48,073 nucleotides of DNA from Polaromonas sp. GTDB lineage: Bacteria; Pseudomonadota; Gammaproteobacteria; Burkholderiales; Burkholderiaceae_C. Below the pieces are notes generated by a model that saw only the letters and a list, made by a program, of their open reading frames with translations, was not told the origin of the DNA and did no database searches. The stretch is from positions 77,437-125,509 of the forward strand of contig NZ_JADMJK010000054.1 in the NCBI RefSeq assembly GCF_018780625.1. The letters run 5' to 3'. Made by a program: the position numbers and the translations under genes. How positions within the stretch are numbered: the first letter of the stretch is position 1; the number at the start of each line of letters is the position of its first letter. Below are positions 34,770 to 44,007 of the stretch, piece by piece.

Positions 34770-35150
34770 ATGTTCCGAACCCTGCTCAAATCCAAGATCC
34801 ATCGCGTTGCGGTCACACACTGCGAGCTGCATTACGAGGGCTCGTGCGCCATTGACGAGAACCTCCTGGAAGCGGCCAACATCGTCGAGAACGAGCAGAT
34901 ACATATCTGGAACATCAACAACGGCGAGCGCTTCATCACCTACGCCATCAAGGGCGAGCGCGGGTCGGGCATGATTTCGGTCAACGGCTCGGCCGCGCGC
35001 CGCGCCTCCAACGGCGACCTGCTCATCATTGCCGCCTTTGCCCAGGTGCCGGGCGATCAGGTGGCGGAGCACGAGCCGCAACTGGTGTTCGTGGACGACC
35101 AAAACCGCCAGACCGCGTTGCGCCATAAGGTGCCGACGCAGCAGCTGTGA
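34770..35150 (+). CDS. panD: aspartate 1-decarboxylase
   Basis: The 126-aa proenzyme is the normal size for PanD and contains the self-cleavage site E23-G24-S25 (HYEGSCAID) from which the pyruvoyl group is formed. K9 and R54-region residues typical of the active site are also seen. It converts L-aspartate to beta-alanine for pantothenate and CoA synthesis in the cytoplasm. Its stop overlaps the start of the bioA frame (GTGATG). It heads an unbroken gene run through bioAFDB, a P450 and two pterin genes. Confidence 0.95.
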
Positions 35151-36562
35151 TGCCAGGCGCCGGCGGCATGTCCGCCACGTCCCTCTCCCGGCGCAGCCTG
35201 GCAGCGGTCTGGCACCCGTGCACGCAGATGCAGCGCGCCGCCAGCGTGCCGCCCCTGGGCATCGTGCGCGGCGAAGGCCCCTGGCTGTTCGACGACGCCG
35301 GCCAGCGCTACTTCGACACCAGCAGTTCCTGGTGGGTCAACCTGTTCGGCCACGCCGATGCGCGCATCAATGCGGCGCTGAAGGACCAGCTCGACACGCT
35401 GCCGCACGTGATGCTCGCCGGCTGCACCCATGCGCCGGCCGTCGAGCTGGCCGAGCGGCTTTCGGCGCTGACGGGCGGCGTGCTCGGGCACTGCTTTTTC
35501 GCCAGCGACGGTGCCTCGGCGGTCGAGATTGCGCTGAAGATGAGCTTTCACCACTGGCTCAACCGGGGACGACCGGCCAAGCGCGAGTTCGTCTGCTTGC
35601 GCCAGGGCTACCACGGCGAAACCCTGGGCGCGTTGGCCGTCACCGACGTGGCGGTGTTCCGCGACGCCTACGACCCGCTCCTGATGCGCTCGCACCAGGT
35701 GATGTCGCCCGACGCCCGCCAAGCGCTGCCGGGCGAGTCCGCCACCGATGTCGCGCTGCGCGCCGCCGCGGCTCTAGAGGCCCTGCTGGCCGAGCGTCAT
35801 GAGCACATTGCCGCCCTGATTCTCGAACCCCTGGTGCAGGGCGCCACCGGCATGGCGATGCACGACCCAGCCTACCTGCGCGCCGCGCGCGCACTGTGCG
35901 ACGAGTACGAGGTGCTCCTGATTGCCGACGAAATTGCCGTGGGCTGCGGGCGCACCGGCACCTTTTTTGCGTTCGAGCAGGCGACACTGCCGGGCCAGAG
36001 CCTTATCTGGCCCGACCTGGTGTGCCTGTCCAAGGGCATCAGCGGCGGCTACCTGCCGCTCTACTTGGTGCTCTCGCAGGGCCGCGTCTATGAAGCCTTC
36101 CTGGACGACGACGTGGCGCGCGGCTTTTTGCATTCACACTCCTACACCGGCAATGCGCTGGCCTGCCGCGCGGCGCTGGCCGTGCTGGACCGCTTCGAGC
36201 AGGACGATGTGCTGGCGCGCAACCGGGAGCGCGCCAAGCTGTTGACTAAAGCGTTGGAGCCACTACAAACCGATGCACGCATCGAGCACTTCCGCCAGAT
36301 CGGCATGATCTGGGCCTTTGATGTGCGCGAGCCCTTTCTTGGCGCACGCTTTGCCGAGCGCTTCCACCTGGCCGGGCGCGAACGCGAACTGCTGATCCGC
36401 CCGATCGGCCGCACCGTGTACCTGATGCCGCCTTATGTGCTGACGGGCGAGCTGTCGGCCTGGCTGGCCGGGCGCCTGCTGGCCACGCTGGACGATGTCC
36501 TGAGCCAAGCCTTCACGGATCCTGACCATGCTGATAGACCACCTGAACCGCCAACGGCTTGA
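35150..36562 (+). CDS. bioA: adenosylmethionine-8-amino-7-oxononanoate aminotransferase
   Basis: The 470-aa protein is a fold-type I PLP aminotransferase with BioA features: W-H-P-C-T-Q near the N-terminus, SSSWWVNLFGH, YHGETLGALAVTD, DEIAVGCGRTG, and the PLP lysine K295 in LSKGISGG. It converts KAPA to DAPA with SAM as amino donor. Three starts are possible: GTG 35147, ATG 35150 (one-base overlap with panD) and ATG 35168; I give the second. It overlaps bioF by 35 bases. Confidence 0.95.
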   Translation: MPGAGGMSATSLSRRSLAAVWHPCTQMQRAASVPPLGIVRGEGPWLFDDAGQRYFDTSSSWWVNLFGHADARINAALKDQLDTLPHVMLAGCTHAPAVELAERLSALTGGVLGHCFFASDGASAVEIALKMSFHHWLNRGRPAKREFVCLRQGYHGETLGALAVTDVAVFRDAYDPLLMRSHQVMSPDARQALPGESATDVALRAAAALEALLAERHEHIAALILEPLVQGATGMAMHDPAYLRAARALCDEYEVLLIADEIAVGCGRTGTFFAFEQATLPGQSLIWPDLVCLSKGISGGYLPLYLVLSQGRVYEAFLDDDVARGFLHSHSYTGNALACRAALAVLDRFEQDDVLARNRERAKLLTKALEPLQTDARIEHFRQIGMIWAFDVREPFLGARFAERFHLAGRERELLIRPIGRTVYLMPPYVLTGELSAWLAGRLLATLDDVLSQAFTDPDHADRPPEPPTA

Positions 36563-37745
36563 GCGCCAGGCCCAGGGCCTCACGCGCCAGCGCCGCATCG
36601 CCGAGTCGCCGTGCGCGCCGCGCCAGGAGGTCAGCTGCGGCGGCCAGCCAGCGCGTGAAATGCTGGTCTTTGGCAGCAACGACTATCTTGGCCTGGCGAA
36701 TCACCCGGCCTTGGTCGAAGCACTGGCCGAAGGCGCGCGCCAGTTCGGCACAGGCAGCGGCGCCTCGCACCTGATCAGCGGCCACTCGCGCGCCCATGCC
36801 GCACTCGAGGAGGACCTGGCCGCCTGGCTGGCGCCCTGCATTCCGGATGCTCAAGCGCTGTACTTCTGCACTGGTTTCCTGGCCAACATGGCGCTGCTCA
36901 CCGCGCTGGGCGACGCCAGCGCCACGATCTTTGCCGACAAGCTCAACCACGCTTCGCTGGTTGACGGCGCCCTGCTGGCCAAGGCGCCGATGCAGCGCTA
37001 TGCCCACAAGAACCTCACAGTGCTCGAGCGCCAACTCGAACGCTGCATGACACCGATCAAACTGATCGTGACCGATGCGGTCTTCAGCATGGACGGCGAC
37101 ATGGCCGACTTGCCGGCGCTCCTGGCGCTGGCCGAGCGCTTCGACGCCTGGCTGATCGTCGATGACGCCCATGGCTTTGGCGTGCTCGGCGCCCAAGGCC
37201 AGGGCGCCCTGGGACACTTCGGCCTGCGCAGCGAGCGCCTGATCTACATGGGCACGCTGGGCAAGGCGGCCGGTGTGGGCGGCGCCTTTGTGGCTGCGCA
37301 CCCAAGCATCATCGACTGGCTGGTGCAGTCCGCCCGCGCCTACATCTACACCACCGCCGCGCCGCCCGCCGTGGCCCATGCCCTGCGCGAGAGCCTACGC
37401 CTCATCCAGAGCGTCGAGGGCGATCAGCGGCGCGTGCAACTGCAGCAGCGCATCACCGAGCTACGCACCGGGCTTGCTACTCTTATCGCCGCGCATCCGG
37501 CGCTGGAGTGGCGGCTGGCCGATTCCCGCACCGCGATCCAGCCGCTGATCGTGAACAGAAACGAAGCCGCGTTGGCGCTGATGGCCGCGCTCGATGCGCA
37601 GGGTCTGTGGGTGCCGGCCATCCGCCCGCCCACGGTGCCGGTCGGCACTGCCCGGCTGCGCATCACTTTGAGCGCTTCGCACACTGCCGAGGATGTTGAG
37701 CTGCTGGTCCAAGGCCTGGCGCTGGCCGCACGGCAAATGTCATGA
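36528..37745 (+). CDS. bioF: 8-amino-7-oxononanoate synthase
   Basis: The 405-aa alpha-oxoamine synthase has the PLP lysine K246 in GTLGKAAGVGG, the DDAHGFGVLG motif and FGSNDYLGLANHP. It condenses pimeloyl thioester with alanine to KAPA. The gene overlaps bioA by 35 bases and bioD by 4, so the operon is tightly packed. The N-terminus of about 40 residues is longer than in E. coli BioF. Confidence 0.95.
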   Translation: MLIDHLNRQRLERQAQGLTRQRRIAESPCAPRQEVSCGGQPAREMLVFGSNDYLGLANHPALVEALAEGARQFGTGSGASHLISGHSRAHAALEEDLAAWLAPCIPDAQALYFCTGFLANMALLTALGDASATIFADKLNHASLVDGALLAKAPMQRYAHKNLTVLERQLERCMTPIKLIVTDAVFSMDGDMADLPALLALAERFDAWLIVDDAHGFGVLGAQGQGALGHFGLRSERLIYMGTLGKAAGVGGAFVAAHPSIIDWLVQSARAYIYTTAAPPAVAHALRESLRLIQSVEGDQRRVQLQQRITELRTGLATLIAAHPALEWRLADSRTAIQPLIVNRNEAALALMAALDAQGLWVPAIRPPTVPVGTARLRITLSASHTAEDVELLVQGLALAARQMS

Positions 37746-38545
37746 ATATGGGCATGATCCCTTCCCACCCCACGCCTTTCCTTATGCCGTTGCAGCCATC
37801 GCACCCGCTGCATGGCTGCTTTGTCACCGGCACCGACACGGCCGTAGGCAAGACCCAGGTCAGCGCGGCGCTGCTGCACTGGTGCGCCCAGCAGGGCTGG
37901 CGCAGCGCGGGCTTCAAACCCGTGGCGGCCGGCACCACGCGCATCGACGGCCAGAGCGTCAATGAGGATGTGCAGGCCTTGCGCCAAGCCGGCTCGGCGC
38001 GACTCACCGATGCCGAAGTCGGTCCGCTGCAGTTCGAGGCCGCCTGCGCGCCGCAGATTGCCGCCGTCCTGGAGGACCGGTCCATTGACCCGGCGACGAT
38101 TCTGTCCGCCGCCCGCCATCTGGCTAGATGTGCCGATGTCGTCGTGGTCGAAGGCGTGGGCGGGTTCTGCGTGCCGCTCGGCCCCGACTGGGACACGGCC
38201 GACCTGGCAGTAGCCATAGGCCTGCCAGTGATTCTGGTGGTCGGCCTGCGCCTGGGCTGCATCAGCCATGCGCTGCTCACGGCCGAGGCAATTCGAGCGC
38301 GTGGCTTGCCGCTGGCCGGCTGGATTGCCAATACCGTTGACCCCGACATGGCGCACCGCGAAGGCAACCTGGCCAGCCTGCGCCATGAAATGACGCGCCG
38401 CCACCAGGCGCCCTGCCTGGGTGTGCTGCCCTGGCTGGACGCGCCGAAACCCGCCGCCGTGGCAGCCCATCTGGACGCTACGGCCCTTCACAGGGTGTTT
38501 GACCACACGCCCTTGCCTTCCTCCTGCCTACTTGAGAGCACCTGA
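37742..38545 (+). CDS. bioD: dethiobiotin synthetase
   Basis: The 267-aa protein has the P-loop GTDTAVGKT at residues 30-38, the substrate-handling lysine in SAGFKPVAAG and VVVVEGVGGF. It closes the ureido ring of dethiobiotin with CO2 and ATP. An N-terminal extension of about 20 residues before GCFVTGTDT suggests that a later start, ATG 37784, is also possible; the ATG at 37742 overlaps bioF by 4 bases. A long tail beyond the core makes it bigger than the usual ~225 aa. Confidence 0.93.
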   Translation: MNMGMIPSHPTPFLMPLQPSHPLHGCFVTGTDTAVGKTQVSAALLHWCAQQGWRSAGFKPVAAGTTRIDGQSVNEDVQALRQAGSARLTDAEVGPLQFEAACAPQIAAVLEDRSIDPATILSAARHLARCADVVVVEGVGGFCVPLGPDWDTADLAVAIGLPVILVVGLRLGCISHALLTAEAIRARGLPLAGWIANTVDPDMAHREGNLASLRHEMTRRHQAPCLGVLPWLDAPKPAAVAAHLDATALHRVFDHTPLPSSCLLEST

Positions 38546-39589
38546 ATGACAACCGCTGCCACTATTGCCACCATTGACGTTTCCTCCCTGCGCCGCACCT
38601 CTGTGCCTTCGAACGCCCCGCCAGCGCCGCTGCGCTGGTCGGTCGCGGATGTGGCCGCCCTGTACGAGCTGCCGTTCATGGACCTGCTGTTTCAAGCCCA
38701 GCAGGTCCATCGTGCGCACTTCGATGCCAGCGAGGTGCAGCTCTCGACACTGCTGTCGATCAAGACCGGCGGCTGCGCCGAGGACTGCGGCTACTGCCCG
38801 CAGGCGGCCAGCGCCGACAGCGGTGTCGAAGCGACCAAGCTGATGCCGCTCAATGAGGTCATGGCCGCCGCGCAGGCCGCCAGGGACCAGGGCGCCACCC
38901 GCTTTTGCATGGGCGCTGCCTGGCGCAGCCCGAAGGAGCGCGACATGGACTGCGTGACCGAGATGGTGCGCGGCGTGCGCTCGCTGGGCCTGGAGACGTG
39001 CATGACGCTGGGCATGCTGCAGGCTAGCCAAGCGCAGGCCTTGAAGGACGCCGGCCTGGATTATTACAACCACAACCTGGACAGCGCCCCCGAGTTCTAC
39101 GGCAGCGTCATTACCACCCGCACCTACCAGGACCGCCTGGACACCTTGGGCCATGTGCGCCAGGCCGGCATCAACGTGTGCTGCGGCGGCATCGTCGGCA
39201 TGGGCGAGAGCCGGCTCGAGCGCGCCGGCCTGATCGCGCAGTTGGCCAACCTCGAGCCGTATCCTGAATCGGTGCCGATCAACAACCTCGTGCCGGTGCC
39301 CGGCACGCCGCTGGCGGACACGCCGCTGCTGGACCCGTTCGAGTTCGTACGAACGATTGCCGTGGCGCGCATCACCATGCCGCTGGCCATGGTGCGCCTG
39401 TCGGCCGGGCGCGAGCAGATGGATGAAAGCCAGCAGGCGCTGTGCCTGCTGGCGGGCGCCAACTCGATCTTCTACGGCGACAAGCTGCTCACCACCAGCA
39501 ACCCGCAAGCCGACCGCGACCGCCAGCTGTTTGACCGGCTGGGCATCAAAGCCCAGGGCGCCCGCCCGGCAGCCCATCCAGCGCCGTGA
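38546..39589 (+). CDS. bioB: biotin synthase (radical SAM)
   Basis: The 347-aa protein has the radical-SAM cluster motif C77-x3-C81-x2-C84 ([12 protein letters not shown]) and further BioB blocks: [38 protein letters not shown] and [13 protein letters not shown]. It inserts sulphur into dethiobiotin using a 4Fe-4S cluster and a 2Fe-2S cluster. The start follows the bioD stop immediately with no gap, and its stop overlaps the P450 start by 4 bases (GTGA). Confidence 0.96.
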
Positions 39590-40932
39590 CCATGCGCGCG
39601 GTCAACAGGAGCGCGGACCCGATGCCGCCCGCGTTGGAGCGGCCCCTTATGGATGCCGCGTTTCTGGCCAATCCCTACCCGACCTACCGGGCCTTGCGCG
39701 AAGCCGGCCCGATCCACTGGCGCGAGGAGTTCTTTGGCGGCGCCTGGCTGGTGACGCGCCATACCGATGTCGAGCTGGTGCTCAAGGACCCGCGCTTTTC
39801 GGCGAAACGCACCGGGTCTTGGGTCAAGGACCGCGAGGACGCGCCGGGCGAGTTCAAGGGATTTCAAGCGCTGTTTGCCCGGGCGCTGCTGTTTTTGGAT
39901 GCACCCGACCACCCGCGCATCCGCAAGGTGCTCAATGCCGGGTTTCGGCCCGAGATCCTCCAGGGGCTCGCGCCTCACATCGAGCGGGTAGCGGGCGAGT
40001 TGCTGGACCGGGTGGCGCACCAAGAGACGTTTGACTTCATCGAGGCTGTGGCCCGGCCGCTGCCGGTGCGGGTGATGGCGCTGCTGCTGGGCATCGAGCA
40101 ACCCGATGACGACTTCATGGCCTGGTCGGAGCACCTGGCGAGCTTCATCGGCGAGCCGCAGCCAACGCGCGCGCAGGCGAGAAGCGCGCAAACCAGCCTG
40201 CTGGCGATGGGCCTGTATTTCGAGTCGCTGCTGGCACTCAGGCGGAAAACGCCGGGCGACGACCTGGTCAGCCGTCTGGCGCAGGCCCAGGCCAGGGGCG
40301 AGATCGAGGGCGGCGCCGAGCTGCTCGCGCAGTGCGCGATGCTGCTGTTCGCTGGCCACGAGACCACGCGCCACCTGCTGGGTAGCAGCGTGCACGCGCT
40401 GCTCTCGCATCCGGCGCAGTGGCAGCGCCTGGTGCGCGAGCCTACGCTGCTGCCCGGCGCCGTGCGCGAGCTGCTGCGCTTTGAAAGCCCCGTGCAGTAC
40501 ACCGGGCGGCGCGTGGCGACCGATATGGTGCTGCACGGTGTGCAGCTGCGCCGGGGCGAGCTGGTGCTGGCAATGATCGGCGCAGCCAGCCGTGACCCGG
40601 CGCGCTACCCAGACCCCGATGTGCTGGACATCACACGCTGCCACGGCCCGTCGCTCGCCTTTGGCTCGGGCCCGCATGTGTGCATCGGCGCGGCGCTCAC
40701 GCTCTTGGAGGCCCGGATCGTGCTGGGCCAGCTGCTTGACCGCTGGCCCGGCCTGAGCCTGGCCGAGGCCGCGCCGCGCTGGGGCGACACGCCCGCTTAC
40801 CGGGGGCTAGTGGCGCTGCCGCTGCGACGACGGCCGGCACATGATGACCATTGGGCAAGTCAACCACAGCTCGATGCCATTGGCACAGAGGCTCGCCGGG
40901 CTACAGCATTAGCGACACAGGTGCACTCATGA
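39586..40932 (+). CDS. cytochrome P450 in the biotin operon (BioI-like position)
   Basis: This 448-aa protein is a standard soluble P450: I-helix AGHETT at 256-261, ExxR at E295/R298 and heme motif [10 protein letters not shown] with C366. The start is GTG at 39586 (overlapping bioB by 4) or ATG at 39592. In Bacillus, BioI is a P450 in the bio operon that cleaves acyl-ACP to pimeloyl-ACP. This gene has the same place here, coupled to bioB, with panD and pterin genes around it, so a pimelate-forming or related role is attractive, but the sequence does not prove it. A C-terminal tail of about 30 residues after the core is not typical. Confidence 0.9.
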
Positions 40933-41696
40933 CCCGAACTGCACTTGTCACGGGCGGAGCAAAACGAATCGGCCGAGCCATCAGCCTGCGCCTGGCCGCC
41001 GAGGGCTACGGCGTCATCATCCATTACCTGAACAGCGAGGCTGACGCCGAAAAGACCCGGGACGATTGCCTGGCGGCCGGAGCCCGCATGGCAAGGATCA
41101 TTCGCAGCGATCTTTCAAAACAGCACGACAGGCATCAGCTGTTGGACCGGGCCACCGAGATGGCTGGAGCCGTCAATTTGCTGGTTAACAGCGCATCGCT
41201 GTTTAACTATGACGAGGCAAGCACATTCGTCGACGAGCGCCTGACAGACCACCTGCAAACCAACTACCTGGCGCCGGTCGAACTGACCATGGCCATGCAC
41301 AGGATGGCCAGTGCTTCAAAGCCGGACAGCTTGAGCCATGTGGTGACGCTACTTGACCAAAAGGTGTTTAATCTGAACACAGACTACATGACCTACACAC
41401 TCGCCAAGCTCGCCAGTCATTCGTCCATCCGCTATCTGGCGCAATGCTGTGCGCCCGTTATGCGAGTCAATGCAATTGCGCCGGGGCTTACCTTTGTCAG
41501 TGGGGAAATGAATCAGGAAGATTTCATCAACGCACACCGGATCGCCGCGCTCGGACGGTCCAGTACCGCAGAAGACATCGCTGCGTCGGTCGTGCTGCTC
41601 GATGAATCGCGCTCCATCACTGGCCAGACCCTGGTTGTCGACGGCGGCCAGCATCTGGTACCGCGTGCGCGCGACGTGGCGTTTGAGACGCGATGA
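40929..41696 (+). CDS. folM: FolM-like dihydromonapterin/pteridine reductase (SDR)
   Basis: The 255-aa SDR has the pteridine-reductase variant of the cofactor motif, TGGAKRIG (8-15; R13 in place of the usual small residue), and YTLAK at 156-160. The block LLDQKVFNLN just before it is typical of FolM-type proteins. FolM reduces dihydromonapterin or dihydrofolate with NADPH. ATG 40929 overlaps the P450 stop by 4 bases, and its stop overlaps the next gene by 4 bases. The pairing with a FolB-like gene supports pterin metabolism. Base composition is lower in GC than in the bio genes. Confidence 0.82.
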   Translation: MTRTALVTGGAKRIGRAISLRLAAEGYGVIIHYLNSEADAEKTRDDCLAAGARMARIIRSDLSKQHDRHQLLDRATEMAGAVNLLVNSASLFNYDEASTFVDERLTDHLQTNYLAPVELTMAMHRMASASKPDSLSHVVTLLDQKVFNLNTDYMTYTLAKLASHSSIRYLAQCCAPVMRVNAIAPGLTFVSGEMNQEDFINAHRIAALGRSSTAEDIAASVVLLDESRSITGQTLVVDGGQHLVPRARDVAFETR

Positions 41697-42067
41697 TGGA
41701 AAAGTGGATTCGCCTAGAGGGCTTAAGGCTCGCTGTTTCCATCGGCATCCACGATTTTGAGCGAATCGGCCCGCAGCCTTACAAGCTCGACATCGGTCTT
41801 CGGCTGGTTGACCACTACCGCACAATAAACGATTCCATCTCGGAGACGGTGGACTATGACAAGCTGAGATCGAGTGTGACAACGCACCTGGAATCGAGGC
41901 ATTTTAATCTTCAGGAAACCGTCATCCAGAACGTGGTCGGACTGTGTTTCGCGCTGGACAACAGAGTCATTGCCGTTGATATCAAGACATCCAAGACCTC
42001 TGTTTACCCTGACTGCGACGCGGTTGGACTGCACTATGTGCTCAATCGGGATGAATGGAACCTGTAA
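41693..42067 (+). CDS. folB: dihydroneopterin aldolase (FolB/FolX family)
   Basis: The 124-aa protein is the size of FolB and keeps the catalytic region: E23 in GIHDFER, Y55 in VDYDKL, E75 in LQETVI and K101 in IKTSKTSVYPD. FolB cleaves dihydroneopterin; FolX epimerises dihydroneopterin triphosphate, so the exact activity is open. It lies directly after the FolM-like gene, a pair that would make a tetrahydropterin. It is the last gene of the panD-bio-P450-pterin operon. Confidence 0.85.
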   Translation: MMEKWIRLEGLRLAVSIGIHDFERIGPQPYKLDIGLRLVDHYRTINDSISETVDYDKLRSSVTTHLESRHFNLQETVIQNVVGLCFALDNRVIAVDIKTSKTSVYPDCDAVGLHYVLNRDEWNL

Positions 42068-42090
42068 CCTACATTTGTTTAACCAATGAG

Positions 42091-42110
42091 GCTTACAAAT
42101 TAATGTAAGC
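42091..42110. terminator. weak hairpin after the operon
   Basis: Arms GCTTACA and TGTAAGC enclose AATTAA, 24 bases after the folB stop, followed by AAATTTTG. The stem is AT-rich and the T run short. It is a possible weak terminator. Confidence 0.3.
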
Positions 42111-42611
42111 AAATTTTGTAAACACCTTTAGAGGCTGACCCCCAATGGGCACATGTCGACGCCATTCACTTCACCACGACATCCTCCAAATCAACCACCT
42201 TCAGTAGATAAGGTGTTGGCGCCGATCTTAGATTGAGCAATACCATAAACATTGATGAACGGACAGCTGCGGCCTATCTGGAATCCTCCGGCTCAAGGAA
42301 CCTGAAGGCCCCAACAGTGCAACGGCTCACCTTGCACTTACCGTGGCCGAGGGCAGGCGATCCTGCGTCACGTCTGCTTTTCACAGCCGCCCTGCGCGGA
42401 CTTACCGTGCCCGACAAAACATCGATGCGGATGAGGTTCTGATCGGTCAGTGGTGGAGATCGCAGCCGGTAGAAAACGATTGCAGGCTGCTCATTTTTGA
42501 GCTCAAAAGTTAGCAGGTCAACTACGAACCAGGCTCAAAGCCCGTTGCATTGTCTTTTGATCCTGGATTTATAAGCTTTTCCTTGGTAGCTCATAACTTC
42601 AAAGTTTTGAG
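42111..42611. other. non-coding or decayed DNA
   Basis: This 501-base stretch between folB and the remnant below shows no gene I trust. A 69-aa frame at 42233-42442 begins with TTG and has no recognised domain. Base composition is mixed, as expected for decayed accessory DNA. Confidence 0.4.
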
Positions 42612-42938
42612 CTATGCACTTAATTTGGCTTTATCCATTCGGGCTGCATAACAAAGCGAGTCGATAAAGCGATCGACCAAAGGGTGGGGAATTTTTACCA
42701 TGTCCACATCTTGGTTCGACATTGAAAAATATGCGTGACTCCACAACTCGCGGCGCACGCCGGCTATGGTGTCGGAGAACGTCGCCTGCGGTTTGGGATA
42801 CCAGGCGGCGCAGCGCCGGTAGAGCTGTCCGGACGAGAACAGCTGCCGCGCGGCCAGTGTCACAAGCAAGGGAATATAGCGCCAGCAGTGTTGGCGCCCG
42901 GCTACTTGGTTGAGCCTTAGGAATGATGGGCTTTGAGT
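42612..42938 (-). pseudogene. fragment, possibly a transposase C-terminal end
   Basis: An open frame of 108 codons without a proper start runs from 42938 to a stop at 42612. It contains WYPKPQATFSDTIAGVRREL, then MVKIPHPLVDRFIDSLCYAA, which resembles the C-terminal end of proteins annotated as transposases. It has no start codon with a ribosome site; GTG or TTG starts lie in the middle. Identification is uncertain. It faces away from the nucleotidyltransferase gene, whose upstream palindrome begins at 42947. Confidence 0.35.
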
Positions 42939-42946
42939 CGCTTACG

Positions 42947-42978
42947 GTTATACTGACTTTTTCTAAACTCAGTATAAC
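42947..42978. promoter_or_regulatory. inverted repeat before the nucleotidyltransferase gene
   Basis: Two perfect 10-base arms, GTTATACTGA and TCAGTATAAC, are separated by 12 bases and end 6 bases before the ATG. Each arm includes a TATACT/AGTATA core that could also be a -10 box. The layout suggests an operator through which expression is self-limited, as in toxin-antitoxin or phage-type genes. Confidence 0.6.
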
Positions 42979-42984
42979 TGCACC

Positions 42985-44007
42985 ATGCTTTACACCTCAC
43001 TGTCCACCGCAGCCCAAACTGCCTACGCGTCGCTGGCCAGTGCAAGCCGGTTAGATGACGTGCGCACCGTGGCTGAACTGCCCGGTAGCTTCTCCACAAA
43101 GGTGATTAAGGGGAAAGAGTATTTGTATTATCAAACCCCGGACCTGACGGGAAAGCAGATGCAGATTTTCCTTGGCTCTGCCTCTGCCGAACTCACCCAA
43201 TTGGTAGAGCTCCACCGAAATGGTGGTGGCAAAAAGGTTCACCTTCGCCAGCTCACCCGCCAAGCCATTGCGGCTGGCTGCCCGGCCATTGTCCCGAATC
43301 ACGCAAAAATCATCGAGCGCCTGGCCGATGCGGGGTTCTTCCGCGCCGGGGGAATCTTGGTGGGGACTCACGTTTACATGGCCTATCAGAATTACCTTGG
43401 TATTCAGTGGCAATCGGCCGCCCAAACCGTCGACTTGGACTTTGCGCATGCCGGCCGTAACGTATCCGTTGCGATTCCATCGGACGTCACGATGGACATG
43501 GGTAGCGAAATCGAAGCGCTCCAGATGGGATTCATTCCAGTGAAAAGCTTGACCACTTACGTGAAATCCGACGAGCCGGACTTGCAAATCGATTTCGTGA
43601 CCTGCTGCCACCGCGGCGGCGACACTCCCGTGCTCATCAAAGCACTGAACGCGACGATGCAGCCGTTGAAATTCATGGAATTCTCCATGGAGGCCCCAAT
43701 TCAGGTCACACTCCTGGCTCAGCGCGGGCCTATCACCGTAAATGCGCCGCCCCCTGAGAAGTACGCGTTGCACAAGTTGCTGGTCTATGGCGAGCGGCCG
43801 CAAAACATGCGAGTCAAAGCAACCAAGGATTTGGCACAGGCCGCATCGCTCATTGACTACTTGGCCAAGAATGACGCTGAACTGTTAAACGAGACGTGGG
43901 CCGGGCTGCTCAGCCAAGGGCCAGGCTGGCAGGGTCGAGCGATTGAAGGACTAAAAGCTTTAAATGAGCACTACCCTGATGTGGATACGGCTGCATTAGT
44001 CGTCTGA
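42985..44007 (+). CDS. GSU2403-family nucleotidyltransferase-fold protein
   Basis: The 340-aa protein has the pol-beta-like nucleotidyltransferase features of the GSU2403 group: GILVGTHVYMAYQNYLG followed by the metal-binding D-x-D in TVDLDFA. The group is common in accessory DNA; its biochemical activity is not established and a toxin or defence role is possible. GC content is lower than in the catabolic genes, a sign of transfer. The ATG is 6 bases after the inverted repeat 42947-42978, which leaves no room for a usual ribosome site, so the message may be leaderless. No partner gene is next to it: the 5' side is a decayed fragment and the 3' side a decayed transposase. Confidence 0.72.
   Translation: MLYTSLSTAAQTAYASLASASRLDDVRTVAELPGSFSTKVIKGKEYLYYQTPDLTGKQMQIFLGSASAELTQLVELHRNGGGKKVHLRQLTRQAIAAGCPAIVPNHAKIIERLADAGFFRAGGILVGTHVYMAYQNYLGIQWQSAAQTVDLDFAHAGRNVSVAIPSDVTMDMGSEIEALQMGFIPVKSLTTYVKSDEPDLQIDFVTCCHRGGDTPVLIKALNATMQPLKFMEFSMEAPIQVTLLAQRGPITVNAPPPEKYALHKLLVYGERPQNMRVKATKDLAQAASLIDYLAKNDAELLNETWAGLLSQGPGWQGRAIEGLKALNEHYPDVDTAALVV

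Follow-up and report, generated by a model that had tools for sequence, protein, structure and literature searches.

BioI (CYP107H1) is a cytochrome P450 that cuts acyl chains held on acyl carrier protein (acyl-ACP) to pimeloyl-ACP. In Bacillus subtilis its gene closes the biotin operon, whose order is bioWAFDBI, with the P450 last, after bioA-bioF-bioD-bioB. A P450 gene holds the same place in a stretch of 48,073 nucleotides from Polaromonas sp. (contig NZ_JADMJK010000054.1, positions 77,437 to 125,509), which we refer to in its entirety as the window. Here bioA (35150..36562), bioF (36528..37745), bioD (37742..38545) and bioB (38546..39589) are followed by a P450 of the CYP107 clan (39586..40932; Pfam PF00067), all on the + strand. 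On the strength of operon conservation and structural matches we propose that this P450 is probably a BioI-type, O2-dependent source of pimeloyl-ACP in a genome (88.9% complete) where no canonical BioC and no BioW were found. A sequence-only reading of this DNA had called the arrangement with a P450 unfamiliar; a P450 that closes a bioAFDB operon is already known from B. subtilis.

Other sources of the pimeloyl group have been described. The BioC-BioH pathway, like the proposed P450, supplies pimeloyl-ACP to BioF. The diiron oxygenase BioE, from Elizabethkingia and Chlamydia, is likewise reported to cleave a long acyl-ACP to the pimeloyl group in an O2-dependent manner (PMC12915131), but differs from a P450 in being a ferritin-like protein. 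BioZ of the alpha-proteobacteria also resides in a bio operon, where it replaces BioC-BioH (PMC8024396), although it is a ketoacyl-ACP synthase and operates by condensation rather than cleavage. BioI itself has been called an enigma, and it is stated to be unique to B. subtilis (PMC12915131).

The conserved biotin operon and its proposed source of pimeloyl-ACP

Relatives of the window P450 were fetched by scanning a genome contig collection with six P450 peptide patterns, yielding 64 loci (L labels) that are biased to close relatives, include some genomes twice and possibly omit the window's own records. In 49 of the 64 the P450 is preceded, on its own strand and within 400 bases, by a bio gene, the gene immediately 5' being bioB in 32 loci, bioD in 14 and bioF in 3; another 2 loci are cut too short for the upstream gene to be judged. 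The order bioA-bioF-bioD-(bioB)-P450 is seen in 35 loci, and panD precedes bioA in 13. Loci with such an upstream bio gene come, among other genera, from Polaromonas, Rhodoferax, Limnohabitans, Variovorax, Thiomonas, Azohydromonas, Tepidicella and Thauera, and the conserved operon is also found in Azoarcus, beside Thauera and many Burkholderiales genera. The P450 genes of L151 and L076 were missed by the gene caller and recovered by tblastn. Read directly from these loci, the conserved unit is bioA-bioF-bioD-(bioB)-P450, with panD as a frequent upstream neighbour. It is smaller than the string of eight genes, running from panD to folM and folB, for which the sequence-only reading had looked to conservation beyond this strain; such conservation extends to the biotin core with its P450, in part to panD-bioA, and not to folM-folB, which lie near the P450 in 1 of 64 loci (L058). 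At a threshold of E 1e-95 the P450 was found in none of the 369 other genomes of a class-wide sample (370 including the window's own, the sole match), for which 20 genomes are listed, two of them from the same family and two more from the same order.

Association with biotin synthesis was assessed in 150 family genomes, comprising an even draw for which at least 90% completeness was requested and the window's own genome (G000), a draft that is 88.9% complete. A bioF cut of 414 bits, placed at a gap in the list, leaves 67 genomes above and 83 below (the curated cut-off admits 57). At E 1e-75 the P450 is present in 15 of the 67 genomes with bioF versus 1 of the 83 without (Fisher p 2e-5, to be taken only as a guide since species are not independent). 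In 12 of these 15 it sits in or beside the bio cluster, G198 being judged from positions alone; it lies about 40 kb from the cluster in G152, and in G134 and G074 a 45-48% relative is on another contig. The window bioF belongs to the lineage found with the order bioA-bioF-bioD, and in the loci of the bioF-tree set with that order the P450 accompanies it in 44 of 50 (L151 included). A further 17 loci of this set (L119-L126, L128, L129, L131-L136, L142) are ordered bioA-bioD-bioF. These operons of the same family resemble the window in that panD is labelled before bioA in some (4 of 17), but differ in gene order, in a bioF that forms a separate set (support 98/95) and in the P450, which is found in none of the 17, the relative in G134 being the one on another contig. 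No canonical BioC match was found in the genomes of these P450-free operons. As the bioF-tree loci were mostly picked by their P450, only the 150-genome sample serves as a measure of co-occurrence.

In the G000 assembly, 88.9% complete, the best match to canonical BioC reaches 91 of the 185 bits that the cut-off requires and lacks S-adenosylmethionine (SAM) motif I, and the best match to BioH reaches 79 bits, below its cut-off of 207. BioW was detected in 0 of the 16 P450-bearing genomes tested, G000 among them, with B. subtilis as a positive control. Across the 150 family genomes BioC passes its cut-off in one (G173, whose bioF scores 379 bits and which is thus counted among the 83), G167 reaches 183 bits, the next best score 136 and 109 bits, and 22 genomes have no match at E 1e-19. 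Among the 52 P450-bearing genomes the best BioC score is two-peaked, with 15 at 153-239 bits, 34 at or below 101.5 bits and 3 with no match at E 1e-19. Of the 37 genomes that have no good BioC (at most 101.5 bits, or none), 36 carry a bio gene directly 5' of the P450, the sole exception being a Roseateles (L110). The same holds for 7 of the 15 whose BioC scores at least 153 bits; G043, one more of these 15, has the P450 at the head of the bio cluster.

An alignment of 23 BioC-like rows (G000, two copies from Thauera operons and 20 picked among low- and high-scoring matches alike) separates the two classes further. All 13 low-scoring rows (79-101.5 bits, G000 included) are without the SAM motif I pattern, the Thiomonas homologue (L166) keeping part of it, and each is accompanied by a comF match within its stretch; all 10 high-scoring rows have the motif, two of these rows being one Thauera gene. 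In all 13 examined cases (L051:4983-5906 on the - strand, and the comF-neighbouring homologues L159-L169 and L178) the motif-I-less homologue has kept its reading frame open over some 300 residues, and BioC matches of equally low score are present in many genomes of the family that have no bioF. This homologue may have a new, non-methyltransferase role.

The P450 and its likeness to BioI

The window P450 carries heme-cysteine, ExxR and I-helix acid/threonine motifs, and C366, G360, E259 and T260 are invariant in all 58 family members. A template-free structure model, built on a 58-row alignment (mean predicted local distance difference test score, pLDDT, 86.7), was compared with the PDB by Foldseek, and hits 1-12 are chains of the BioI-ACP complexes 3EJB, 3EJD and 3EJE; these chains are one protein, matched at E 2e-27 to 2e-26 with 34% identity. 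Ligand contacts of BioI were taken from PMC10741444 (Table 5) as the 30 residues lining the acyl-ACP ligand in 3EJB, residue 56 being excluded for a letter misfit. Positions aligned to these contacts, such as F97, F103, F187, G307 and L326, are identical in 58 of 58 family members, which suggests that the members share one substrate. At the position of BioI F82 an F stands in 58 of 58, and in none of the four other CYP107s in the comparison. In the tree, the P450s of Burkholderiales group together, separately from the characterised enzymes (support 99/100), and L143 and L153, first labelled paralogs, fall inside it.

We favour a BioI-type reaction because of the P450's place in the operon, its co-occurrence with bioF, the lack of BioW and of canonical BioC, and the fold. 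We infer its substrate, product and redox partner as follows. The P450 would bind a long acyl chain on ACP and cleave it oxidatively to pimeloyl-ACP, using O2 and a redox partner encoded elsewhere; BioF would then condense pimeloyl-ACP with alanine, and the beta-alanine produced by PanD would feed coenzyme A (CoA) and the prosthetic group of ACP. The use of the P450 product by BioF would set the operon apart from that of B. subtilis, whose BioF reportedly does not take up the product of BioI (PMC11089781).

Several observations weigh against this proposal, the first of which concern the protein itself. The structural margin is small, with the twelfth BioI chain at E 1.6e-26 and CYP107X1 at 4.1e-26, and identity to BioI is 34.7% (35.1% on the HMMER alignment) against 39.2% to CYP107X1. 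P450s are assigned to one family at 40% identity or more, and the window P450 falls below this value with BioI. It keeps 7 of the 30 BioI contacts, the same number as TamI and PksS; on HMMER pairwise alignments it keeps 8, compared with 9 for PksS, 9 for CYP107X1 and 4 for 8yhn. BioI is ranked second by phmmer and third by the family profile. Approximately unbiased (AU) tests of the sister clade, run without L143 and L153, give p-AU values of 0.0675 with BioI, 0.347 with 8yhn and 0.028 with PksS, and the tree would thus neither support nor reject kinship with BioI. Neither identity nor contact residues (in two alignments), profile rank or tree showed the P450 to be a sequence orthologue of BioI. 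The likeness to the B. subtilis system lies in the P450 gene standing last behind bioA-bioF-bioD-bioB and in BioI as the first structural match, and the differences in the low identity, the contacts that are not preferentially shared and bioW, found in 0 of the 16 genomes tested. The P450 was possibly recruited independently of Bacillus BioI.

The remaining difficulties are genomic. In 13 of the 64 P450 loci, 10 of them Massilia or Cupriavidus, the fetched stretch has no bio gene upstream. In the Thauera loci L082 and L085 the operon that holds the P450 also contains bioH and bioC (named by eye, with the BioC score in addition), flanked by bioF and bioD, which weakens the P450 as sole route. 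Thauera are facultative anaerobes, and would therefore need both the P450 and the BioC-BioH routes. A sensible version of the proposal is that the P450 is an aerobic route, working alone or beside BioC-BioH. Furthermore, the P450 is missing from 52 of the 67 bioF-bearing family genomes. Apart from G167, none of these 52 has a BioC that scores more than 136 bits, and the family hence has another route to pimelate. No bioZ or bioE lies among the eight genes of the string, the genomes not having been searched for BioZ or BioE, and the absence of canonical BioC and of BioW from G000 is subject to the incompleteness of its assembly.

These observations lend some weight to two alternatives. It is conceivable, albeit unlikely, that the P450 has a different part in biotin metabolism, oxidising for instance biotin, dethiobiotin or another acyl intermediate, while pimeloyl-ACP comes from an unrecognised route. 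The indifferent retention of BioI contacts, the Thauera operons with P450 plus bioH-bioC, and the loci without an upstream bio gene would all fit such a role; the nearest fold, however, is that of BioI-ACP, just 1 of 83 family genomes without operon-grade bioF has the P450, and the P450 is tied to bio operons chiefly where a good BioC is missing. We hold it improbable that the P450 makes pimeloyl-ACP but is dispensable, with BioZ, BioE or the motif-I-less BioC homologue carrying the flux. Such dispensability has precedent in reports that BioI is non-essential in B. subtilis (PMC11089781, PMC7645780, PMC12915131) and that BioE occurs in Burkholderiaceae (PMC12915131), and is in keeping with the many bioF-bearing genomes that do without the P450. 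Against it, one would not readily expect an idle gene to be retained at the operon's end over many genera, and BioW, the alternative in B. subtilis, was found in none of the 16 genomes tested. Pimeloyl-ACP formation by the P450 can also be put in a stronger form, in which a CYP107-clan P450 was recruited independently of BioI and became the obligatory O2-dependent source of pimeloyl-ACP as BioC decayed to a pseudo-methyltransferase; we offer this form tentatively, as a possibility rather than an expectation.

The eight-gene string and its neighbours

Eight open reading frames (ORFs), all on the + strand, span 34770-42067, and both this count and the junction sizes given by the sequence-only reading (from panD to folB: 1, 35, 4, 0, 4, 4 and 4 bases) agree with the ORFs, the family matches and the sequence, the sizes depending on the choice of start. 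The string opens with panD, encoding aspartate 1-decarboxylase (34770..35150; NCBIfam TIGR00223, 160 bits); this and the four bio genes (bioA TIGR00508, 487 bits; bioF TIGR00858, 441 bits; bioD TIGR00347, 150 bits; bioB TIGR00433, 404 bits) pass their NCBIfam cut-offs. It closes, behind the P450, with a FolM-like short-chain dehydrogenase (SDR; 40929..41696), which passes the Pfam SDR domain and scores 255 bits to PRK09134, below the 281 cut-off, and a FolB-like dihydroneopterin aldolase (41693..42067), which passes PF02152 but, with 46 of the required 72 bits, falls short of the folB equivalog. Alternative starts exist for bioA (GTG 35147 or ATG 35150) and the P450 (GTG 39586 or ATG 39592). 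A home-made codon-usage gene caller places the starts of bioA (35228), bioD (37784) and bioB (38651) further in; with these starts the junctions would have gaps of 77, 38 and 105 bases. The same caller leaves folB uncalled. Close spacing is ordinary in the window, a gap of at most 4 bases being seen at 9 of the 23 remaining co-directional junctions called there. A promoter scan of the + strand between 34400 and 42800, which finds about as many sites as in shuffled sequence, gave no sigma-70-like site, and a terminator-like hairpin follows folB (42091..42110, + strand), the number of such sites being near chance and similar in shuffled sequence. The eight genes likely share a single transcript. 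BirA of beta-proteobacteria is reported to lack the DNA-binding domain (PMC5343134), and the usual biotin repressor is therefore not expected here.

The folM and folB genes are a lineage-specific local attachment, since they lie beside the P450 in 1 of 64 relatives and differ in composition: G+C is 58.7% in folM and 51.2% in folB, versus 67.8-69.1% from bioA to the P450. The window P450 has 34 residues after its conserved end, compared with 2-15 in the 7 relatives examined. In L058 the P450 extends 5 residues past this end and a spacer of about 330 bases precedes folM, and that genome has a second folB elsewhere; in G000, whose assembly is incomplete (88.9%), the window folB is the only copy seen. 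In L055, whose P450 is 83-84% identical, the P450 tail and some 60 bases from the start of folM are alignable as DNA, and the remainder of folM and folB were not found at that locus. Across folM, folB and the ORF 42985-44007 (window positions 41001-44000) G+C drops to 51-56%, and no gene is called from 42067 to 42985; this stretch is a possible junction of acquired DNA. A functional link of the P450 to pterins was rejected, as folM and folB are not conserved beside it, and the joining of CoA precursor, biotin and pterin synthesis put forward by the sequence-only reading describes this strain and not a conserved unit. That the eight genes form one functional unit, with a pterin or acyl substrate for the P450, is very improbable in spite of the seven tight junctions and of panD and bioA also abutting in L058, given the single, spacer-separated occurrence of folM and folB among the relatives and their deviant composition.

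Other genes adjoin the operon in particular lineages. In Rhodoferax (L060:2559-5630) nadB-queE-queD, named by eye, run into panD and the bio operon, and genes of similar length stand at this place in Limnohabitans loci. In Caballeronia (L076:2463-5891) bioB-P450 is followed by panC (by eye), another contact between biotin and pantothenate genes. Genes for biotin-dependent carboxylases, of the pyruvate- or acyl-CoA-carboxylase type by eye, adjoin the P450 or bio genes in several loci (beside the P450 in L078 and L080; L077; L138; upstream of bioF in L098 and L117).

Meaning for biotin synthesis in Burkholderiales

As far as our searches tell, what is new is the spread of bioAFD(B)-P450 in Burkholderiales, in many cases without BioW or canonical BioC. 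Among the titles and abstract beginnings listed in our literature search, whose coverage mostly excluded subscription journals and preprints, there was no report of this P450 in Burkholderiales. Should the proposed role be true, biotin synthesis in the carriers would be O2-dependent. Were the stronger form true as well, with the P450 as an obligatory source, this would be the first case of P450 acyl-ACP cleavage as the physiological entry to biotin. The carriers of bioAFD(B)-P450 provide natural hosts that may depend on a P450 route to biotin, and they make the role of BioI testable.

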